Positions 1,796-10,921 of a DNA stretch of 64,000 nucleotides are shown here, piece after piece (positions within the stretch are counted from its first letter, which is position 1; each line of letters starts with the position of its first letter). The translations under genes and the position numbers were made by a program. Below the pieces are notes generated by a model. It saw only the letters and a list, made by a program, of their open reading frames with translations, was not told the DNA's origin and made no database searches. The DNA lies in NCBI RefSeq assembly GCF_021631985.1, contig NZ_CP070225.1, positions 1,302,001 to 1,366,000 on the forward strand, given 5' to 3'. The DNA comes from Sandaracinus amylolyticus (GTDB lineage: Bacteria; Myxococcota_A; Polyangia; Polyangiales; Sandaracinaceae).

Positions 1796-1804
1796 GACGC
1801 GTGC

Positions 1805-2314
1805 TCAGCGATAGATGACTTCGACGATCGTGAGCTTGCGGCGGCCGCGCGGGGTGTCGACCACGACCTCGTCGTCGACGCTCTTGCGCAGAAGCGCCGC
1901 GCCGATCGGCGAGCGATACGAGATGCGGCCGCGCTGCGCGTCGGTCTCGTGCTCGCCGACGAGCTGGTACGTGAGCGTCTCGCCCGCATCGTCCTCGAGC
2001 ACCACGGTCGCGCCGAAGAACACGGTGTCGCCACGATCGACCGCGGGATCGACGACCATCGCGGCCTCGAGGATCTTGCGCAGGAAGCGCATGCGCCGAT
2101 CGATCTCGCGCAGCCGCTTCTTGCCGTAGATGTACTCGGCGTTCTCCGAGCGATCGCCCTCCGCCGCGGCATCGGACACGCCCTGCACGACGCGCGGCCG
2201 CTCGACCCCGCCGAGGTGCTCGTACTCGCTCTTCAGCCGCGCGAAGCCCTCGGGCGTCGTGTAGACCGGACCGGCGGGCTTCTTCTCGTCGTCGTCTTCG
2301 CTCGACGCGTTCAC
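1805..2314 (-). CDS. greB: Transcription elongation factor GreB/GreA family
   Basis: 169 residues. GreA/GreB proteins insert a coiled coil into the RNA polymerase secondary channel and stimulate cleavage of backtracked RNA. The N-terminal coiled-coil domain is visible (about residues 18-90, with TPEGFARLKSEYEHL and the acidic tip region SDAAAEGDRSENAEY), followed by the C-terminal FKBP-like domain (about 95-169, with GDTVFFGATVVLED and YRSPIGAALLRK). An extra acidic N-terminus (about 15 residues) precedes the first helix. The start is GTG at 2314. It lies 10 bases after the response regulator stop on the same strand, so it is probably the last gene of the kinase/prenyl-synthase cluster, perhaps only by read-through. 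Confidence 0.9.
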   Translation of the reverse strand: MNASSEDDDEKKPAGPVYTTPEGFARLKSEYEHLGGVERPRVVQGVSDAAAEGDRSENAEYIYGKKRLREIDRRMRFLRKILEAAMVVDPAVDRGDTVFFGATVVLEDDAGETLTYQLVGEHETDAQRGRISYRSPIGAALLRKSVDDEVVVDTPRGRRKLTIVEVIYR

Positions 2315-2323
2315 GACCTGATC

Positions 2324-2959
2324 CTAGCGGCGTTCGGGCACCGTGCCCGGCGCGAGCGGCAGGCCCACCGCGCGCTCGAGCACCGCCCGCGCGACCGCCT
2401 CGAGCGAGGCCGCGCGCGCCTTGTGCAGCAGGCTTCGCGTCTGGCTCTTCAGCGTGTTCTCGGTGACCCCGAGGATCACCATCACCCCATCGCGCGAGTG
2501 CCCCGCGACGACGAGGGTCACGATCTCGCGCTCGCGCGGCGTGAGCCCCCACGCGGTCGCGAGCTCGTCGATCACCTGCGCGACGCGCGCGTCAGGATCG
2601 CGCGCGATCGCGCTCTCGACGAAGTGCAGCACGTTGTCCGCGCCGAACGGCTTGAACGCGAACTCCGCGCGCAGCGCCTGGGCGCGGTTCGCGAGCGCGC
2701 GGCTGTCCTGCCCGGTGACGACGAGCGCTGGAAGATCGTCCCAGCGCGCGCGGATGTCCGCGAGCAGCTCGAGCCCCGATCCGTCGGCGAGCCCGACGTC
2801 GATGATCACCGCGATCCAACCGTCGCGGCCCACGCGGTCGAGCTCCGCGAGCGCGTCCGCGCGTGTGCTGTGTATGACGACCTCGGCGTGTCGGCGCACG
2901 ACTCGCGCGACGGCCTCGGCCCCATGAGGATCGTCCTCCACCACCAACACGCGTTTCAT
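2324..2959 (-). CDS. Response regulator, receiver plus LuxR-type HTH (NarL/FixJ type)
   Basis: 211 residues. The N-terminal receiver domain (1-120) has the acidic pair D9/D10, phospho-acceptor D54 (in VIIDVG), T82 and K103 (AFKPFG). The C-terminal HTH (about 138-195) has the LuxR signature LTPREREIVTLVVAGHS, so it should be a phosphorylation-controlled DNA-binding regulator. ATG 2959 is chosen because it opens the receiver fold; an in-frame upstream start would overlap the methyltransferase. It sits 37 bases after the methyltransferase in the same cluster as the six-TM kinase at 4594-5907, which is its likely partner. Its class is the same as Bacillus ComA. Confidence 0.9.
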   Translation of the reverse strand: MKRVLVVEDDPHGAEAVARVVRRHAEVVIHSTRADALAELDRVGRDGWIAVIIDVGLADGSGLELLADIRARWDDLPALVVTGQDSRALANRAQALRAEFAFKPFGADNVLHFVESAIARDPDARVAQVIDELATAWGLTPREREIVTLVVAGHSRDGVMVILGVTENTLKSQTRSLLHKARAASLEAVARAVLERAVGLPLAPGTVPERR

Positions 2960-2996
2960 GATCGCGTCGAGAGTAGACGATGCGCGCGCGCCGTCA

Positions 2997-3869
2997 TCAC
3001 CCCTTTCGACGCCACACGAGCCAGCGATAGCGGATCGCTCCGCGCTCGAGGGCATCGCGCAGATGTGCGTGCTCGCGCGCGTGGTGCTCCGCTTCGCCGC
3101 GATCGGCGGCGGTCGCGCGGATCCACGCGATGCTGAGATCCCAGAAGCGCCGCGCGCGGGGTGCCAGATCTTCGTCGTGCACGAGCTCGAGCCCGACGCG
3201 CCCGGCCGCTCGTGTGTACTCCTGCTCGGGTCCGATGCGCGTGCGCCATCGCGCGTCGAACCACGCGCGCTCCGACTCGTCGCCGAGGAAGCAGTCGACG
3301 ACGTGCAGCACGCCTCCGGGACGCAGGCTCGCGCGCGTCGCGCGCATCCAGCGCGCGCGATCGAAGTAGCAGGACGACTCGATGGCGATCGCCGCGTCGA
3401 AGCGCTCGTCGGGCGGCCTGTGCGCGTCGCGGTGCTCGACGCGGACGCGATCGGCGAGCCCCGCGTCGCGCGCGAATCGCAGCGCGAGCCCGACGTGAGA
3501 GCGCTCGTTCGTGATCGCGACGACCCGGTGCCCCTCGTTCGCGAAGAAGATCGCGCCGCCTCCGAGCCCGCAGCCGACGTCGAGGATGCGCGCCGGGCTC
3601 GGCGCGAGCCGGTCCCGGACGTGCTCGAGCAGGCGCTCCTGCGCGCGCGTCATCGCCGCGCGGATCGCGTCCGGATCGTGCTCGTGGATCTCGTGATCGA
3701 CGAGCCCGGTGTGGAAGTGCACGCGCGGGCCGGGGCCGTACTTGCGCAGGATGCTCTCGGTCTTGTCGCGGTAGTACGCGGCGACGGGATCGCTCGGTCG
3801 CGTCGATCGCAGCGCGCGCGGACGATCGCTCGGTCTCGGAGGTGGAGCGCTGCGCGCCGCCGCGCTCAC
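2997..3869 (-). CDS. SAM-dependent methyltransferase (isoprenoid/small-molecule type)
   Basis: 290 residues from GTG 3869, which overlaps the upstream stop as GTGA, indicating translational coupling; an ATG at 3905 would lengthen the overlap. The SAM-binding Rossmann fold is clear: motif I ILDVGCGLGGGAIFFA, then AITNERSHVGLAL, HRDAHRPP and SLRPGGVLHVVD. The N-terminal segment (YYRDKTESILRKYGPGPRVH) and overall layout recall methyltransferases acting on isoprenoid diphosphates, such as geranyl-diphosphate C-methyltransferase, and cyclopropane-synthase relatives. That resemblance is by eye. Its position beside an isoprenoid-synthase-like gene supports an isoprenoid or prenylated substrate, but the substrate is unproven. 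Confidence 0.82.
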   Translation of the reverse strand: MSAAARSAPPPRPSDRPRALRSTRPSDPVAAYYRDKTESILRKYGPGPRVHFHTGLVDHEIHEHDPDAIRAAMTRAQERLLEHVRDRLAPSPARILDVGCGLGGGAIFFANEGHRVVAITNERSHVGLALRFARDAGLADRVRVEHRDAHRPPDERFDAAIAIESSCYFDRARWMRATRASLRPGGVLHVVDCFLGDESERAWFDARWRTRIGPEQEYTRAAGRVGLELVHDEDLAPRARRFWDLSIAWIRATAADRGEAEHHAREHAHLRDALERGAIRYRWLVWRRKG

Positions 3870-4597
3870 GCGATCGACCTCAGGCGCTCGGTGATCGGCG
3901 CGCATGCGCCGGTGATCGAGGGCAGCTCGAGCGCGCGTGCGCTCTCGAGGATTGCATCGGCCCATCGCGCGAGCGCGCGTCGATCGTCCGGCGCGAGCGT
4001 GGTCACGCGCGCATCGTCGCTGCGGAAGTCCTCGGCGACGAAGCCCGCGGTCCCGAGCGCGGCACCGATCTCGGCGGCGCGCGGCGCGAGCGCGGTGCCG
4101 GCCCACGCCGCGCGAAGGTAGGCCGCGTACTGCAGCCCGCCCATCGCCTCGGCGATGCGCTGGGTCGTCGCGAGATCGAAGCGCTCGGTGCGCACCTCGA
4201 CGTGCTGCATCGACGCGGCGCGCACCAGATCGCGACCGATCGCGCGCAGCGTGTCGCGATCGACGTCGCCCGCGCCCGACCACATCGACCACGCCGCGTT
4301 CTGCAGCGCGAACTGTGCGCACGGCCCGACGCGCGGCGCGGGCTCGAGGTACGTGCAGTCGCCGTCCGCGAGATCGTCGGCGAGGTTGCCCGCGGCGAAC
4401 GAGAAGAACGCGCCGGCCGCACGTGCTCGCGCGCGCGCCGCGTCCACGCCCGCCTCGACGCACGCCGCGTAGAGGAAGGCGAGCGGCCCGGTCCGCCCCG
4501 CGTCGAGGCACCACACGAGATCGCGCTCGGTCGCCGGATCGAGCTCGAGCGCGACGATCCACGCGAGCGCCTCGCGATACACCGCGCCTTCGCTCAT
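3866..4597 (-). CDS. Isoprenoid-synthase-fold protein with DDxxD motif (ComQ/polyprenyl synthase-like)
   Basis: 243 residues, mostly helical. The first aspartate-rich motif of class I isoprenoid synthases is visible at D74-D75-x-x-D78 (NLADDLADGD), where Mg-diphosphate would bind. A second acidic cluster (GFVAEDFRSDD, 185-195) lies where the second Asp-rich motif is expected but is degenerate. It is shorter than ordinary polyprenyl diphosphate synthases (about 290-350 residues). The ATG at 4597 overlaps the kinase stop (ATGA) and its own stop overlaps the methyltransferase start (GTGA), so the three genes are co-translated. It could make or transfer a prenyl chain as ComQ does, or be a small terpene synthase. 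The fold call is fairly secure; the reaction is inferred. Confidence 0.72.
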   Translation of the reverse strand: MSEGAVYREALAWIVALELDPATERDLVWCLDAGRTGPLAFLYAACVEAGVDAARARARAAGAFFSFAAGNLADDLADGDCTYLEPAPRVGPCAQFALQNAAWSMWSGAGDVDRDTLRAIGRDLVRAASMQHVEVRTERFDLATTQRIAEAMGGLQYAAYLRAAWAGTALAPRAAEIGAALGTAGFVAEDFRSDDARVTTLAPDDRRALARWADAILESARALELPSITGACAPITERLRSIA

Positions 4598-5907
4598 GCG
4601 CTCGCTCCGTTCTGCGTGGTCGCGCGGGGCAGCACGATGCGCACGATCGCGCCACCGGTGCGCGCGTTGGATCGCTCGATCCATCCGCCGCTCGCGCCCG
4701 CGAGCCGATCGACGGTGAACAGCCCGAGCCCGGTGCCCTCGGGCTTGGTCGACTTGAACCCGGTGATCGGCGCGTCGAGGTGCTCCTTCGCGAAGCCCGG
4801 GCCGTCGTCCTCGACGCACACGATCGCCATCGCGGGATCGGTGAGCTCCTCGACGATCACCCGCACCCGCCCCGCGCTGTTCGTGCCGTCGCCCTCGCAC
4901 GCGTTGACGAGGACGTTCGAGAGCATGCGCTCGAGCGAGGGCACACCACCCTCGACCTCGACGACCGCGTGCTCGCGACCGTTCGCCACGATCGCGAGAT
5001 CGACGTGCCGGAAGCGCCCGCCCACCAGATCGATCGCGCGCTCGAGCACGGGCCGGAGCACGACCGGCTCGCGGCTCGGCGACGACGTGAGCGTGGGGCG
5101 CGTGATGTCGATCGCCGAGCGCAGCGCGCCGCGCGCACGATCGAGCTCCCGCGCGCTGTCGGCCGACACGCGATAGCCCTCTGCCGCGCTCTCGAGCGCG
5201 GAGAGCGCGCCCATCAGCGCGTTGCGCACGTCGTGGGCGCGCGCGTGGGCGTCGACGAGGATGCCGCGGACCTCGTCGGCACGTCGCGCACGCTCGCGCG
5301 CGAGCTGCGCCTCGAGCGCTTGGCGCAGTCGCTCGCGCTCGGCGCGCAGCCGATCGCTGCGCACCGTGGCCCACCCGATCATCATCCCGCTGAGCACGCC
5401 CGCGGGGCCGGTGATCGAGAGCACCAGGAGCTGCGTCTTGCTGGTCGCGAGCGTCGCCGCGAGCGCGAACGCGAAGGTGTCGGCGATCGCGATGAACGGA
5501 TGCCGCAGCGTCGAGCGCGCCTGGTATCCGTGCGCCATCGCGGTGGTCACGACCATCGCGCCGAACACCGGCGCAGCGCGATCCGAGGCGAACACGACGA
5601 GCGCGGCGGCGACGAAGCCCACGCACCACGTGCCGACGAGCAGGCCGATCGGCGCCGCACGTCCGGCGAGCGAGCCACGCACCCACGCGAACGAGAGCGC
5701 GAGCAGGAGCAGCAGCACCGGGCCGACCGCGGCGAGCAGCGCACCGCCGCGCAGCTCGAGGAACGCATGCATGCCCGGCGAGAGCGCGTCGAGCGCGACC
5801 AGGCCGAGCACCCACAGCGCGACGACCGCGACCTGTCCCGGTGAGAACGCGGCGCGCAGCAGCTCGGGGTCGAGCTGTTTCGACCACTCGTCGAGGCGAC
5901 GGAGCAT
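4594..5907 (-). CDS. Membrane sensor histidine kinase, six TM segments
   Basis: 437 residues. The N-terminal half has about six hydrophobic segments (roughly 24-44, 55-77, 86-108, 112-126, 138-155, 158-182) with almost no periplasmic domain, so the ligand is likely met in or at the membrane. An Arg-rich coiled linker (183-215) leads to the phospho-acceptor motif HDVRN (His225), the N box (N331/N335, LSNVLVNACEG), the G1 box DDGPG (367-371) and the G2 box GTGLG (391-395). The ATG at 5907 lies three bases after the upstream stop (TGACCATG). It pairs naturally with the LuxR-type regulator three genes downstream. A multi-TM sensor with little periplasmic mass suits a lipidic signal, as in ComP. 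Confidence 0.9.
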   Translation of the reverse strand: MLRRLDEWSKQLDPELLRAAFSPGQVAVVALWVLGLVALDALSPGMHAFLELRGGALLAAVGPVLLLLLALSFAWVRGSLAGRAAPIGLLVGTWCVGFVAAALVVFASDRAAPVFGAMVVTTAMAHGYQARSTLRHPFIAIADTFAFALAATLATSKTQLLVLSITGPAGVLSGMMIGWATVRSDRLRAERERLRQALEAQLARERARRADEVRGILVDAHARAHDVRNALMGALSALESAAEGYRVSADSARELDRARGALRSAIDITRPTLTSSPSREPVVLRPVLERAIDLVGGRFRHVDLAIVANGREHAVVEVEGGVPSLERMLSNVLVNACEGDGTNSAGRVRVIVEELTDPAMAIVCVEDDGPGFAKEHLDAPITGFKSTKPEGTGLGLFTVDRLAGASGGWIERSNARTGGAIVRIVLPRATTQNGASA

Positions 5908-5909
5908 GG

Positions 5910-6245
5910 TCAGGTGATCGTCACGTACCAGCCGCTCTTCGCGTTGATCGCGTTCGCGTCGGCGGCGGCTTGCTCGTAGCGCGCCTGCAGCTCGCGCATC
6001 GTGTCGGGGTGACCGCGGCGCACCACGTCGATCTTCACCTCGCCGCCCGCGAGCACGACGTGCATCGCGTCGAACACCGGTCGCAGCGCCTCGGCGACGG
6101 CCATCTTGCCGAGCGGGCCCTCCATCACGCCGAGCGACATCAGTCGACGCAGGTAGTCGAACGTCGAGTGCGTGAGTGGATAGTTGACGAGCTGCGCTCC
6201 ACCGCTCGCGGGCGAGCCTGGATTCGCGGGATCTCCGTACGACAT
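5910..6245 (-). CDS. Small protein upstream of the kinase; candidate prenylated-pheromone precursor
   Basis: 111 residues with no recognised domain, no signal peptide and no cysteine. It has an N-terminal Gly/Pro/Ser-rich stretch, an amphipathic middle (VNYPLTHSTFDYLRRLMSLG, 20-39), a Val-rich stretch, a helical Ala/Gln-rich stretch (83-103), and ends GWYVTIT with the only Trp at position 106. A good ribosome binding site (GGAGGGG) precedes ATG 6245. It is the first gene of the cluster, followed directly by the kinase. Bacillus ComX precursors are 50-75 residues with a near-C-terminal Trp that is prenylated by ComQ. The analogy is positional plus the lone Trp; homology is not shown. It could instead be an unrelated cytosolic regulator of the kinase. 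Confidence 0.6.
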   Translation of the reverse strand: MSYGDPANPGSPASGGAQLVNYPLTHSTFDYLRRLMSLGVMEGPLGKMAVAEALRPVFDAMHVVLAGGEVKIDVVRRGHPDTMRELQARYEQAAADANAINAKSGWYVTIT

Positions 6246-6272
6246 GAGGGCCCCTCCGGCTTTCAGAGAAGA

Positions 6273-6289
6273 CGTGATCGAACATCACG
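6273..6289. promoter_or_regulatory. Inverted repeat between divergent promoters (candidate operator)
   Basis: CGTGAT, five bases, then ATCACG: a perfect 6-base dyad in the 104-base gap between the small-protein gene (start 6245) and the peroxidase gene (start 6350). Spacing and position fit a dimeric regulator, possibly the cluster's own LuxR-type response regulator. No consensus was matched. Confidence 0.3.
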
Positions 6290-6349
6290 ACGGTAGTCGC
6301 GTGGTATCGCCCTGCGGGGTGATTGCCGGCCGATTGCTGCGGAGGGCAC

Positions 6350-7174
6350 GTGGATCGAGTGCGCGATCCACGTCCCCAGCCCGCGCTCTTCCACGGACCC
6401 GGGGCGCACGCGGCGCTCGTCGTGTGGCGCGCGCGAGAGGGCGTGTCGCCGGCGTTCCTGCGAATGCGCGCGACGTCGTTGATCGATCGCGGGGTGCTCG
6501 TCGCGATCGCACCATCGCTGCTCGATGCGCGCGAGCGGGAGGCGATGCCCGTGGAGCGTGTGCTCCCGCGAGCGCACGCCGGGCGCTCGATGCCGTCGAC
6601 GCGCGGGTCGGTGCTCGTGCAGATCGCGAGCGACGAGCGCGAAGTGGTGATCGAGACGCTGCGGCGCGCCGACGCGCTGCTCGGGACGATCGCGGATCGC
6701 GACGAGGAGATCGAAGGAGGCTGGCCGCTCGATCGCCGCGAGCCGTTCGGGTTCCGCGAGCCGCGCGTGCCGACACACGACGACGTGCGTGCCGCATTGG
6801 TCCCCGAGGGCCCGCTCGAGGGCGCGACGTTCCTGCTGCACCAGCGGTACGTGCAGGACCGCGCGCGCTTCCTCGCGCGTCGCGAGCGCGATCGCGAGCG
6901 CGTCGTCGGACGCACGACCGAGGGCGTCGTGGTCCCCGACGCACCGGAGCGCGCCCACGTCCGCCGCGTGACCGGGAGCGCGATCGTGCGCCGTGGGTTC
7001 CCGTATCGCGCTTCGGGCGACGAGGGGCTCGTGTACCTCGCGATCGCGCGCGCACCCGAGCGCCTCGCGGACGCGCTCGACGCGATGCTCGGTGCGCGAG
7101 ACGGGATCGCCGACGCGATGCTCGACTACGTCGAGGCGATCGGCGGCGGGCTCTACGTCGTGCCGCCGCTCTGA
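6350..7174 (+). CDS. DyP-type heme peroxidase, divergent catalytic motif
   Basis: 274 residues. The C-terminal half matches the DyP family: candidate proximal heme ligand His203 in ERAHVRRVTG, then RRGFPY (Arg215 region), GLVYLAIARAPERL and the closing GGGLYVVPP. Family members use heme and H2O2 to oxidise dyes, phenolics or other compounds. The usual GxxDG motif carrying the distal Asp reads GFREP (134-138), so Asp is replaced by Glu and the last Gly by Pro, which may alter activity. No Tat signal is seen, so it is probably cytoplasmic. GTG 6350 lies just after GGAGGG; GTG 6359 is an alternative. Its end overlaps the convergent pxpC by 22 bases. Confidence 0.8.
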   Translation: MDRVRDPRPQPALFHGPGAHAALVVWRAREGVSPAFLRMRATSLIDRGVLVAIAPSLLDAREREAMPVERVLPRAHAGRSMPSTRGSVLVQIASDEREVVIETLRRADALLGTIADRDEEIEGGWPLDRREPFGFREPRVPTHDDVRAALVPEGPLEGATFLLHQRYVQDRARFLARRERDRERVVGRTTEGVVVPDAPERAHVRRVTGSAIVRRGFPYRASGDEGLVYLAIARAPERLADALDAMLGARDGIADAMLDYVEAIGGGLYVVPPL

Positions 7175-8004
7175 CGCAGCAGCGCGCGCGCTTCGTCGAT
7201 CGTGATCGTGGTGAAGCGCACGTCGCGTCCCAGCGGGATCGCGTGGAACCGATCGAGGTCGACCCCCGCGACCAGCGCGACGACGGGATAGCCACCGGTG
7301 GTCGGATGATCGACGCCCAGCACGATGGGCTCACCACCCGGCGGGAGCTCGATCGCGCCCGCGATCATCGGCGTGGTGCGCGCAGCCGGAGCGTCGTCGC
7401 GCCAAGGGATCGCCGGGGCCTCGAGGCGCGTTCCGGTGCGATCGCTGCGCGTCGAGAGCCGCCATGCGCGTGACGTGAGCGCATCGATCGCGCTCGGCGC
7501 GTAGACGTCGAGATCGGGCCCTGCGACCAGACGGATCGCGCCTTGGTGCGGCGTCCATGCGAGCGCGTGCGCCGTGGTGATCGGCTCGCTCGCGGTCCGG
7601 AGCACGTCGCCGCGTCGCAGCGGACGACCCTCGAGCCCGCCGATGCGCGCCGCGACGAGCGTGCCTCGACCACCGAGCACGCGCGGCACGTCGATGCCCC
7701 CCTGCAGTGCGACGAAGCGCGCGCGACGCGCGCCGTCCCACGCGAGCTCGATGCGCTCTCCGTCGTGCAGCGTCCACACGCGCGCGTCGTCGTCCGCGAC
7801 GGTCACGTCGCCGCGCGCGACGATCGTGATCGCGCCGTAGCGCTCGATCCCCGCCGCGTGCTCCGGATTGCCGACCGCGCGATTCGCCGCTGCGAGCGCG
7901 CTCGGGATCAGCGCGCCTCCACGCGGCACGCCCTCGCGCAGCAGCCCCGGTCGTCCTCCGTCCTGCACGAACGCGAGGCCCACGACGCGCTCGAGCTCGA
8001 TCAT
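7153..8004 (-). CDS. pxpC: 5-oxoprolinase subunit PxpC (KipA/allophanate hydrolase subunit 2 family)
   Basis: 283 residues. Together with PxpA and PxpB it forms the ATP-dependent prokaryotic 5-oxoprolinase that opens pyroglutamate to glutamate. Family features: GLAFVQDGGRPGLLREGVPRGG near the N-terminus, NRAVGNPEHAAGIE, VWTLHDGERIEL, and the C-terminal GVDHPTTGGYPVVALV motif with the conserved TGGYP. The ATG at 8004 overlaps the pxpB stop as ATGA. It is the last gene of the pxpABC operon. Confidence 0.93.
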   Translation of the reverse strand: MIELERVVGLAFVQDGGRPGLLREGVPRGGALIPSALAAANRAVGNPEHAAGIERYGAITIVARGDVTVADDDARVWTLHDGERIELAWDGARRARFVALQGGIDVPRVLGGRGTLVAARIGGLEGRPLRRGDVLRTASEPITTAHALAWTPHQGAIRLVAGPDLDVYAPSAIDALTSRAWRLSTRSDRTGTRLEAPAIPWRDDAPAARTTPMIAGAIELPPGGEPIVLGVDHPTTGGYPVVALVAGVDLDRFHAIPLGRDVRFTTITIDEARALLRQSGGTT

Positions 8005-8594
8005 CCGACGCGCTCGAAGCGCACGCGATCGCCGATCGCGAGACGAACGTGATCGCCCTCGAGCGGCTCGAAGCGCGGGGCGTGACCGAGCAGGCGCCAG
8101 CCGCCGGGCGAGCTCCACGGGTACACGCCGGTGAAACCGCCTGCGATCGCGACCGCGCCCGCGGGCACGCGCGGACGCGGCGACGCGCATCGCGGGATCC
8201 CGGCGAGCGCGGGATCGAGCCCCCGCAAGTATCCGAAACCGGGCAGGAATCCGACGAAGCTCACGTCGTACGCGGCGCGCGCGTGGCGCGCGATCACCTC
8301 GTCGCGATCGAGCCCCGAGAGCGAGGCGACCTCGTCGAGATCCTCGCCGTCGTAGATCACCTCGATCACGTGCTCGCGCGGCTCGCGACGCGCGGCCCGC
8401 TCCACCCGCGACGCGAGATCGTCGAGCGACGGAGGTGTGCCCTCGAAGCGCACGCACACGTGCGACTCGCTCGCGTGCGCATCGAGCACGCCGGGGATCG
8501 TGACGAGCGCATCGAGCAGCGCGCGTCGATCGCTCGTCGCCGGCACCTCGATGCGCAGCGCGCTCTCGCCGAAGGGCTCGATCACGAAGCTCAC
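8001..8594 (-). CDS. pxpB: 5-oxoprolinase subunit PxpB (KipI/allophanate hydrolase subunit 1 family)
   Basis: 197 residues from GTG 8594, which overlaps the pxpA stop as GTGA. Typical motifs: GESALRIEV at the N-terminus, VIEVIYDGEDLDEVA, the very characteristic SFVGFLPGFGYLRGLDP, then PRPRVPAGAVAIAGGFTGVYP and SPGGWRLLGHAP. It provides the ATP-dependent carboxylation/phosphorylation part of the 5-oxoprolinase with PxpC. The cluster organisation supports the assignment over KipI-type sporulation regulators. Confidence 0.93.
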   Translation of the reverse strand: MSFVIEPFGESALRIEVPATSDRRALLDALVTIPGVLDAHASESHVCVRFEGTPPSLDDLASRVERAARREPREHVIEVIYDGEDLDEVASLSGLDRDEVIARHARAAYDVSFVGFLPGFGYLRGLDPALAGIPRCASPRPRVPAGAVAIAGGFTGVYPWSSPGGWRLLGHAPRFEPLEGDHVRLAIGDRVRFERVG

Positions 8595-9286
8595 GTCGCG
8601 AGCGCGTCGAGGGTCTCGCGCACCGCACGTGCGATCGCGAGCGCGCCCGGGGTGTCGCCGTGCACGCAGATCGTGTCGACCTCGCCCGAGGTCGCGAGCA
8701 CGCGCGCTTGCGCCGCGGCGCGCGCGGGGTCCTCGATCAGCGCGCCCGGCTGTCCACGCGGGATCAGCGATCCGTCGGGGCGAGTGCCGCGATCGGCGAA
8801 CCCCTCGCGCTCGTACCGGCATCCCGCCGCGCGCGCCGCGCGCTCGAGCGCGCTGTCCTTCGGACCGAGGATCGCGACCGGGCCGAGCTCGCCGCGGATC
8901 GCGCGCACGCACGCCTCGGCGATCGACGGATCGTTCGCCGCGTCGTGGTAGAGCGCGCCGTGCAGCTTCGCGTGCTCGATCGCGATGCCGACGCGCTCCG
9001 CGACCATCCGCAGCGCGCGGCACTGCGCCGCGATCGAGGTCTCGAGCGCCTCGATCGCGAGCGCGACGCGACGCCGCCCGAATCCCTCGCGATCGGGATA
9101 CGCGGGATGCGCGCCCGCCCGCACGTGGTGCTCGCGGCACGCGCGGAGCACGCGCTCCATCGAGCGCGCATCGCCCGCGTGCCCGCCGCATGCGACGTTG
9201 AGCGCGTGCGCGAGCGCCCAGAGCGCCTCGGGCTCGCTCTCCATCTCACCGGCGTCGACGTTCAGCAGCGGGCGCATCGCCGGCAT
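8591..9286 (-). CDS. pxpA: 5-oxoprolinase subunit PxpA (LamB/YcsF family)
   Basis: 231 residues from ATG 9286 (a second ATG at 9277 is equally possible; neither has a strong ribosome binding site). LamB/YcsF signatures: NVDAGE, NVACGGHAGDARSM, GAHPAYPDREGFGRR, HAKLHGALYHDA and TICVHGDTPGA. It is the first gene of pxpABC; the three genes overlap by four bases each, so the subunits are probably made in fixed ratio. Role: recycling of 5-oxoproline formed spontaneously from glutamine/glutamate. Confidence 0.93.
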   Translation of the reverse strand: MPAMRPLLNVDAGEMESEPEALWALAHALNVACGGHAGDARSMERVLRACREHHVRAGAHPAYPDREGFGRRRVALAIEALETSIAAQCRALRMVAERVGIAIEHAKLHGALYHDAANDPSIAEACVRAIRGELGPVAILGPKDSALERAARAAGCRYEREGFADRGTRPDGSLIPRGQPGALIEDPARAAAQARVLATSGEVDTICVHGDTPGALAIARAVRETLDALAT

Positions 9287-9376
9287 TCTACGCGCTTCGC
9301 ACGTGAGTTTTTGCATGGCCGTCGCTCCGTCGCGGGCGGCAGGCTCCACGGCCCCGATCAGGCGGCGGAGGACGAG

Positions 9377-10921
9377 ATGATCACGCTGAAGAGCTATCTG
9401 CGCGGCGAGTGGGTCGCGGGCACCGGGCGCGGCACCGCGCTCGTGAACCCCACGACCGAGGAGCCGATCGCGGAGGCGAGCACGCAGGGCCTCGATCTCG
9501 GCGCCGCGCTCGAGTTCGCGCGCACCAAGGGCGGTCCGGCGCTGCGCGCCGCGACCTTCGCGCAGCGTGGCGCGTGGCTCGACGCGATCTCGAAGGCGCT
9601 GCACGCACGTCGCGACGCGCTGCTCGACGAGTCGATTGCGAGCTGCGGCACCACGCGCTCGGACGCGAAGTTCGACGTCGACGGCGCGATCGGCACGCTC
9701 GCCTACTACGCGGGCCTCGGCAAGAAGCTCGGCGAGACCACGACGATTCTCGAGCCCGCCGAGCAGCTCACGAAGAGCGCGCGTTTCTTCGGCGCGCACG
9801 TGTGGACGGCGCGCGAGGGCGTCGCGGTGCACGTGAACGCGTTCAACTTCCCGGCGTGGGGCCTCGGCGAGAAGCTCGCGGTCGCGCTGCTCGCAGGCGT
9901 GCCGGTGATCAGCAAGCCCGCGACGTCGACCGCGCTGCTCGCGATGCGCGTCGCCGAGGCGATCGTCGACGCGAACGTGCTCCCGCCCGGCGCGTTCCAA
10001 TTCGTCGCCGGCAGCACCGGGGATCTGCTCGACAAGCTCGGCCCCCAGGACGTGCTCGCGTTCACCGGCTCGGCCGACACCGGCGCGAAGCTGCGCGGCG
10101 GCAAGGGCCCGGTGGAGCGCTCGGTGCGCGTGAACATCGAGGCCGACAGCCTGAACAGCGCGGTGCTCGCGCCCGACGTCGAGCCCGGCAGCGACGTGTA
10201 CGCGACGTTCCTCCGCGACGTGGTGCGCGAGATGACGCAGAAGACGGGGCAGAAGTGCACCGCGACGCGCCGCATCTTCGTGCCCGCCGCGGTGATCGAT
10301 CGGGTGCAGGAGGATCTCGCGGAGCAGCTCGGCGCGATCAAGGTCGGCGACCCCGCGCGCGACGACGTGCGCATGGGTCCGCTCGCGACGAAGCAGCAGC
10401 ACGAGGACTTCCGGAGCGGCATCGCGAAGCTCGTCGCGTCGGGCGCGCGCGTGGTGCACACGCGCGAGGTGAGCGAGCCGAAGGGCTACTTCGTCGCGCC
10501 GACGCTGCTGCGCGCGGATGCGCCCGCGAGCGCGACCGCGGTGCACGCGCACGAGGTGTTCGGCCCGAGCGCGACGCTCATGCCGTACGCGCAGATCGCG
10601 GAGTGCGTGAAGCTCGTCGCGATGGGCGAGGGTGGTCTGGTCGCGAGCGTGTACGGCGACGATCGCGCGCTCCTGCGCGAGCTCGTGCTCGGCATCGCGC
10701 CGTGGCACGGCCGTGTCGTGATCGCGTCGAGCAAGGTCGCGGATCAGTCGATCGCGCCGGGCATGGTGCTGCCGTCGTGCGTGCACGGCGGCCCCGGTCG
10801 CGCCGGCGGCGGCGAGGAGCTCGGCGGCGAGCGCGGGCTGCGCTTCTACATGCAGCGCACCTCGATCCAGGCGGATCGCGCGCTGATCGACAAGCTGTTC
10901 GAGCAGGCCAAGGCCGAATGA
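9377..10921 (+). CDS. PaaZ/BoxD-type aldehyde dehydrogenase
   Basis: 514 residues, the length of a stand-alone aldehyde dehydrogenase of the PaaZ N-terminal/BoxD type and lacking the PaaZ MaoC hydratase part. Catalytic landmarks: Glu in NIEADSLN, the nucleophile Cys in KTGQKCTATRR, and the signature HVNAFNFPAWGLGEKLA. Relatives oxidise 3,4-dehydroadipyl-CoA semialdehyde or oxepin-CoA-derived semialdehyde during benzoate/phenylacetate breakdown via CoA epoxides. GGAGGA at 9367 precedes ATG 9377. No other paa or box genes are visible nearby, so the physiological aldehyde is open. The next gene starts inside its stop (ATGA). Confidence 0.88.
   Translation: MITLKSYLRGEWVAGTGRGTALVNPTTEEPIAEASTQGLDLGAALEFARTKGGPALRAATFAQRGAWLDAISKALHARRDALLDESIASCGTTRSDAKFDVDGAIGTLAYYAGLGKKLGETTTILEPAEQLTKSARFFGAHVWTAREGVAVHVNAFNFPAWGLGEKLAVALLAGVPVISKPATSTALLAMRVAEAIVDANVLPPGAFQFVAGSTGDLLDKLGPQDVLAFTGSADTGAKLRGGKGPVERSVRVNIEADSLNSAVLAPDVEPGSDVYATFLRDVVREMTQKTGQKCTATRRIFVPAAVIDRVQEDLAEQLGAIKVGDPARDDVRMGPLATKQQHEDFRSGIAKLVASGARVVHTREVSEPKGYFVAPTLLRADAPASATAVHAHEVFGPSATLMPYAQIAECVKLVAMGEGGLVASVYGDDRALLRELVLGIAPWHGRVVIASSKVADQSIAPGMVLPSCVHGGPGRAGGGEELGGERGLRFYMQRTSIQADRALIDKLFEQAKAE

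Follow-up and report, generated by a model that had tools for sequence, protein, structure and literature searches.

Does a myxobacterium carry a signalling system that works like ComQXPA, the lipid-peptide signalling system of Bacillus? The question is raised by a gene cluster of Sandaracinus amylolyticus, located in a window of 64,000 nucleotides (NZ_CP070225.1, positions 1,302,001 to 1,366,000; all coordinates below are window positions), which a preliminary description had read as ComQXPA-like. The accessible text of a 2014 census records no ComQXPA-like loci outside Firmicutes (PMC4008528), and no published account of such a module in myxobacteria was found in a literature coverage that leaves many subscription papers outside. 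The six closely spaced or overlapping open reading frames (ORFs) described on one strand are all present on the minus strand, in the order small protein, kinase, 243-amino-acid (aa) enzyme, methyltransferase, response regulator, and GreB, with 4-base overlaps at the kinase/enzyme and enzyme/methyltransferase junctions. We consider the chances even that this cassette is a ComQXP-like signalling module outside Firmicutes, in which a (methyl)prenylated peptide is sensed by the kinase.

The first line of evidence is the constant association of three genes. Ten loci with the enzyme were identified: those of the window, G001, G491, G543, G383, G462, G465, G236, and G524, and that of G314, which belongs to another class. 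The small protein and the kinase adjoin the enzyme in all ten (in G314 read across two contigs), as predicted for the small protein and kinase in the preliminary description. The order of the genes varies. The small gene is followed by the kinase and then the enzyme in the window, G001, G314, G491, and G543, and by the enzyme and then the kinase in G383, G462, G465, and G236, while G524 has enzyme, small gene, and kinase, which is the order of comQ, comX, and comP. The methyltransferase follows the enzyme in the window, G001, G314, and G491; the G543 contig ends about 0.3 kb past the enzyme. No C6-type methyltransferase was seen in the G383 and G465 loci, where genes for radical S-adenosylmethionine (SAM)/B12-binding proteins lie beside the cassette (L015:875-2419 and L049:3887-5650, respectively), possibly providing another route to methylate the donor or the peptide.

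Genome-wide searches gave the same association. Among the 317 genomes of the class, a four-row enzyme profile matched 12 at E<=1e-4, nine of them at E<=1.8e-22 (G000, G001, G383, G543, G491, G462, G465, G524, and G236); the other three (G013, G231, and G251, 2e-8 to 4e-5) were not counted as members. The small-protein profile matched 10 class genomes at E<=1e-4, namely eight of the nine enzyme genomes together with G523 and G226, and the small protein of the ninth, G236, was found when its locus was re-scanned (8.6e-6). This overlap (9 and 10 genomes, 8 in common, of 317) has a hypergeometric probability of 1.7e-13, a value that ignores relatedness, and counts for the signalling module. In a phylum sample of 377 genomes, a two-row enzyme profile matched strongly in G000, G001, and G314 and more weakly in G383 (7.5e-6), and the small-protein profile matched strongly in all four and partially in G226 (5e-7). 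Seven of the 11 enzyme matches at E<=0.01 reached only 2.4e-4 to 0.01, and three of the eight small-protein matches (G049, G106, and G352) only 0.006-0.009; none of these was counted. A 10-row enzyme profile found five genomes in the phylum at <=2.3e-89 and, after a gap, 13 weaker matches (1.2e-17 to 8.6e-7); G236 is an addition, and the 13 of the 18 were not counted as members. These weaker matches could represent polyprenyl synthases of the ordinary kind or longer fusion proteins. One protein of G013 (L052:5099-7033, 644 aa) has an N-terminal domain resembling isoprenyl diphosphate synthases (IDS; PF00348, 5.4e-4) and, by eye, a C-terminal DADDTG stretch; it is perhaps a prenyl enzyme-cyclase fusion, and cyclase families gave no match to it at E<=0.01. 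Within the class of G314, only G314 itself (1/90 genomes) matched the four-row enzyme profile. A search of genome contigs with the small protein yielded 178 pattern matches, from which only L024 and L025, the loci of G314 and G383, were confirmed, in a search that may leave out records very near the window's genome, and tblastn against plasmids gave no match.

The three proteins have also diverged together. Their pairwise distances across the ten loci correlate (r 0.87-0.92, Mantel p 1e-4), the kinase with the enzyme and with the small protein at r 0.92 each, in a set in which G001 nearly duplicates the window, the G314 kinase is partial, and the G465 kinase was trimmed to the final 440 residues. 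This counts in favour of a signalling module, but since shared ancestry alone can yield such a correlation, it demonstrates joint inheritance and not contact. Each of the three proteins shows the same two clades. G543 and G524 belong to one family yet fall into different cassette clades, and this mismatch suggests that the cassette has been transferred between species.

The 243-aa enzyme (3866 to 4597, minus strand) had been described as having an isoprenoid-synthase fold with a DDxxD motif. Single-sequence searches of Pfam, NCBIfam, and the PDB (phmmer) gave no meaningful match, so that the fold is invisible in this way. A 10-sequence profile matched 21 sequences in the PDB at E<=10, the strongest at 1.5e-5; most of them are synthases of polyprenyl, geranyl, or farnesyl diphosphate. 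PF00348 (polyprenyl_synt) was matched by three of the ten members at E<=0.5, best by the G383 homologue (4.9e-5, under the Pfam curated cut-off), and hhalign against five polyprenyl synthases of the same genome gave a probability of 93.3 across 151 columns. An AlphaFold2 model from a four-row alignment (predicted local distance difference test, pLDDT, 74; predicted template modelling score 0.75; residues 1-36 and 80-93 poor) is all helical. Foldseek ranked MoeN5, the moenomycin prenyltransferase, first, followed by farnesyl diphosphate (FPP) and geranylgeranyl diphosphate synthases, with TM 0.68 and no match at E<=0.001; MoeN5 itself is about 20% identical, at E 1.2e-3. Among the 50 VIA matches listed, trans-IDS chains reached Z 17.9-19.9, including the Trp farnesyltransferase Ord1 (Z 18.6). 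No chain named ComQ is among the fold matches listed, which excludes nothing. MoeN5, which has the IDS fold, transfers a prenyl group to an acceptor that is not an isoprenoid, and its gene context is unrelated to this cassette. Profile searches, hhalign, and comparison of the predicted model thus agree on an isoprenoid-synthase fold, no non-prenyl fold appeared, and the presence of the prenyltransferases MoeN5 and Ord1 among the fold matches is counted for peptide prenylation.

Eleven residues are invariant in all ten enzymes: D74, D75, and D78 of the first Asp-rich motif (DDxxD, residues 74-78), E134, G154, Q156, Y160, G182, D190, D195, and R197. The first motif is present in 10/10 sequences and a canonical second DDxxD in 0/10. 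This is the state reported for ComQ in the accessible parts of two sources (PMC10853753; PMC13290415), and it likewise argues for a ComQ-like role. PalQ/PalX, ComQ, the P domain of ChrPC, and Ord1 share this superfamily fold, the first motif, and a degenerate second motif. According to the available text of PMC13290415, however, the characterised trans-IDS-like peptide enzymes all target Trp, whereas here neither the Gln linked to Trp recognition nor a Trp in the tail of the small protein is conserved. Unlike in those peptide prenyltransferases, a kinase is a fixed neighbour here.

The methyltransferase (2997 to 3869, minus strand, 290 aa), like the response regulator, is confirmed by its Pfam domain. 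Its nearest solved relatives are the C6-FPP-methyltransferase 9TB4 (3.7e-43) and BezA, a C6-methyltransferase of geranyl diphosphate (GPP) (7FBH, 2.2e-42); the third-best solved structure reaches only 1.1e-16, and the next match within the same genome 7.7e-8. By sequence it groups with the prenyl-diphosphate C6-methyltransferases and not with housekeeping enzymes, which is counted for a prenylated signal. None of the three outcomes that the preliminary description had named as contrary to its reading (a non-prenyl fold, a small protein unlinked from the kinase, or a housekeeping methyltransferase) occurred. Glu164 and Phe242-Trp243 align to Glu165 and Phe243-Trp244, so that the enzyme retains the catalytic Glu and the Phe-Trp pair, while the FPP pocket residues His194, Met47, and Tyr209 are replaced by Cys193, Thr54, and Trp208 and the C6-FPP-methyltransferase pocket is not reproduced; BezA has Val at the His194 site. 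A further difference from 9TB4 and BezA is the partner, here an IDS-like enzyme with a kinase and not a canonical terpene synthase. The roles of the Glu, the Phe-Trp pair, and the required His194 are described for C6-FPP-methyltransferase in the available part of PMC12929941. Retention of the catalytic residues together with the replacement of His194 suggests that the substrate is probably a prenyl diphosphate, either GPP or FPP. In the G491 homologue (L047:239-1060) the catalytic Glu is gone, with FGAT in place of IESS, and this protein may be non-methylating.

The same available text reports that known C6-FPP-methyltransferases feed neighbouring terpene synthases (PMC12929941), and this favours a small homoterpenoid as the signal. 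The methyltransferase would then methylate a prenyl diphosphate at C6, the IDS-like enzyme would hydrolyse or cyclise the product, and the kinase would sense the terpenoid, with the small protein as an accessory, for example an enzyme partner or a kinase regulator. We regard this as a serious rival, though less likely than a prenylated peptide. By profile and fold, the enzyme is nearest to chain-elongating or transferring trans-IDS. Moreover, the small protein is found in every enzyme locus, including those that lack a C6-type methyltransferase.

The kinase (4594 to 5907, minus strand, 437 aa) has a HATPase_c domain (5.2e-16), and no HisKA family was matched in it by Pfam. ComP is expected to have HisKA_3 (PF07730) together with HATPase_c; the three of the ten kinases that were scanned (window, G383, and the partial G314) matched HATPase_c but not HisKA_3. 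The described histidine kinase is thus upheld, and the six transmembrane segments attributed to it become five clear hydropathy segments and perhaps a sixth. The G465 kinase (L049:7110-9080, 656 aa) contains two groups of hydropathy segments one after the other, which looks like a duplication of the membrane sensor. The response regulator (2324 to 2959, minus strand, 211 aa) is of the FixJ/LuxR type, as described, with Response_reg (1.3e-11) and GerE (2.9e-5, just above the cut-off) domains. It adjoins the set in the window, G001, G314, G543, G383, and G462; none was identified in G491, G524, G465, and G236, where the neighbours were only partly scanned. PADLOC returned a generic methyltransferase match for the methyltransferase and a weak match for the regulator, which we read as shared domains.

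The extent of the cassette was defined by comparison with G002, a genome of the same genus. Window positions 1803-2263 and 7229-10080 match G002 L084 7757-8217 and 8307-11149 in blastn, so that window positions 2264 to 7228 (about 4.9 kb) correspond to about 89 bases in G002. There pxpC, pxpB, and pxpA come directly after greB; in the window, these genes lie beyond the far end of the set. G002 lacks the enzyme and the small protein, and no protein of the unit, the regulator included, was found in that 11-kb contig. Apart from G001, the nearest relative of the regulator in genomes of the family is 42% identical and on a contig other than that of greB. The regulator, methyltransferase, enzyme, kinase, small protein, and a DyP-type peroxidase are one presence/absence unit in the window. 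The greB gene (1805 to 2314, minus strand; GreB above the NCBIfam cut-off, GreA/GreB in Pfam), which had been included in the set, is genuine and occurs in 10/10 genomes of the family, but it is a flank, because it directly adjoins pxpC at the empty site of G002. In G004, G005, and G007, greB has no pxp genes next to it.

The peroxidase, missing from the earlier set, lies inside the unit (6350 to 7174, plus strand, start uncertain), divergent from the small gene, with a Dyp_perox_C domain (6.1e-16). Among loci of other genera it was seen only in G543, as a 40% identical homologue between the regulator and the small gene (L046:3431-4348). In the alignment the window protein reads GFREP where that of G543 reads GFVDG, at a site that we take to be the DyP motif, and the window peroxidase may have an altered activity. 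Encapsulin cargo, which would combine DyP with terpenoid enzymes, was set aside as an explanation, although no search aimed at it was made. The peroxidase in both units would suit a pathway under two-component control in which the kinase responds to some other cue and does not sense the pathway's product; that product, prenylated or terpenoid, would serve in defence or in the membrane. The output of the regulator also varies by locus, being LuxR-type here, a Fis-like HTH_8 domain in G314 and G543, and without a recognised output domain in G383 and G462, as would be expected of such a pathway. Nevertheless, the kinase adjoins the enzyme at every locus and its divergence tracks both the enzyme and the small protein, and we consider this explanation improbable.

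The small protein (5910 to 6245, minus strand, 111 aa) is the putative precursor, with a conserved part and a C-terminal tail. No Pfam, NCBIfam, or PDB family could be assigned to it. In the ten enzyme-linked homologues (94-114 aa), 23-30 residues follow a conserved Leu (Leu 86 in the window), and seven of the ten tails end in Pro. Two homologues without the enzyme (G226 L020:939-1262 and G523 L061:6549-6857) have no such tail, with only 10 and 16 residues beyond the Leu; the G226 gene precedes an ORF that by eye resembles a Ser/Thr protein kinase. Longer tails where the enzyme is present fit a precursor made of a leader and a tail.

Several observations weigh against a prenylated peptide sensed by the kinase. 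The tail difference (Fisher p 0.015) is drawn from only two tailless comparators, and conservation of the tail (0.40) is not far below that of the rest of the protein (0.48-0.54). A Trp near the end occurs in two of the ten tails (those of the window and G001, at the sixth position from the C-terminus), Tyr in seven, and neither in G491, G465, and G524, so that no nucleophile is conserved across the tails; this lack of a conserved acceptor would also suit the homoterpenoid signal. In the enzymes, the position upstream of the second motif that is linked to Trp recognition holds Gln in four, His in four, and Phe in two, with Phe in the window. The small proteins of the window and G001 share 97% identity and have the same tail, and their ratio of nonsynonymous to synonymous substitution rates (dN/dS) is 0.09, against 0.41 for the methyltransferase, 0.31 for the kinase, 0.29 for the enzyme, and 0.24 for the peroxidase (regulator 0.06, greB 0.05). 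Such conservation, seen in one species pair, is unlike the hypervariable ComX, and a strongly conserved small protein beside a methyltransferase, enzyme, and kinase that diverge together again favours a homoterpenoid. In the same pair, the kinase is conserved equally in its membrane and catalytic parts. The structure model of the small protein is unusable (pLDDT 49.9), and no protease or exporter was identified within the unit.

The resemblance to ComQXPA is therefore partial. An IDS-fold enzyme with the first and without the second Asp-rich motif, a small protein, and a membrane kinase are adjacent in both, and to this extent the ComQXPA-like description stands; in the window a LuxR-type regulator joins them. 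The description fails at the small protein and the kinase. None of the 12 small proteins matched ComX (PF05952) at E<=0.5, which argues against a strict ComQXPA system; a whole-genome Pfam search for ComX, which found nothing above the cut-off, carries little weight, since its B. subtilis control failed as well. The proteins are longer than ComX (52-73 aa) and have no conserved Trp, which in ComX precursors is expected among the last 5-10 residues, and the scanned kinases lack HisKA_3. A prenyl-diphosphate methyltransferase or radical-SAM gene is an addition, and the loci lie outside Firmicutes. The cassette works most like ComQXP(A), yet since the ComX, ComP, and Trp features are missing, it is not a member of ComQXPA.

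If the cassette is nonetheless a ComQXP-like module, the small protein would be the precursor and substrate, with its conserved part recognised by the trans-IDS-like enzyme. The enzyme would ionise a prenyl diphosphate at DDxxD and prenylate the C-terminal tail, where we infer the acceptor atom to lie. In the branch of the window, the methyltransferase would first methylate GPP or FPP at C6, the presumed donor, so that a methylated prenyl group is attached. The modified tail would then be released and exported, and the membrane kinase would sense it and signal to the response regulator. We propose more tentatively, at clearly less than an even chance, that this is a peptide pheromone of a new class outside Firmicutes, with a leader-tail precursor, a C6-methylated prenyl group (or B12/radical-SAM methylation in the sister loci) on a non-Trp residue or the C-terminus, a cognate kinase, and a cassette whose genes are gained and lost together. 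This rare gene set may be an independent version of Bacillus lipid-peptide signalling. If so, prenyl-peptide signalling would have arisen a second time or would have a distant branch here, the methylation of prenyl diphosphates would gain a place in cell signalling, and the loci would provide a family of trans-IDS-like enzymes that possibly accept residues other than Trp.

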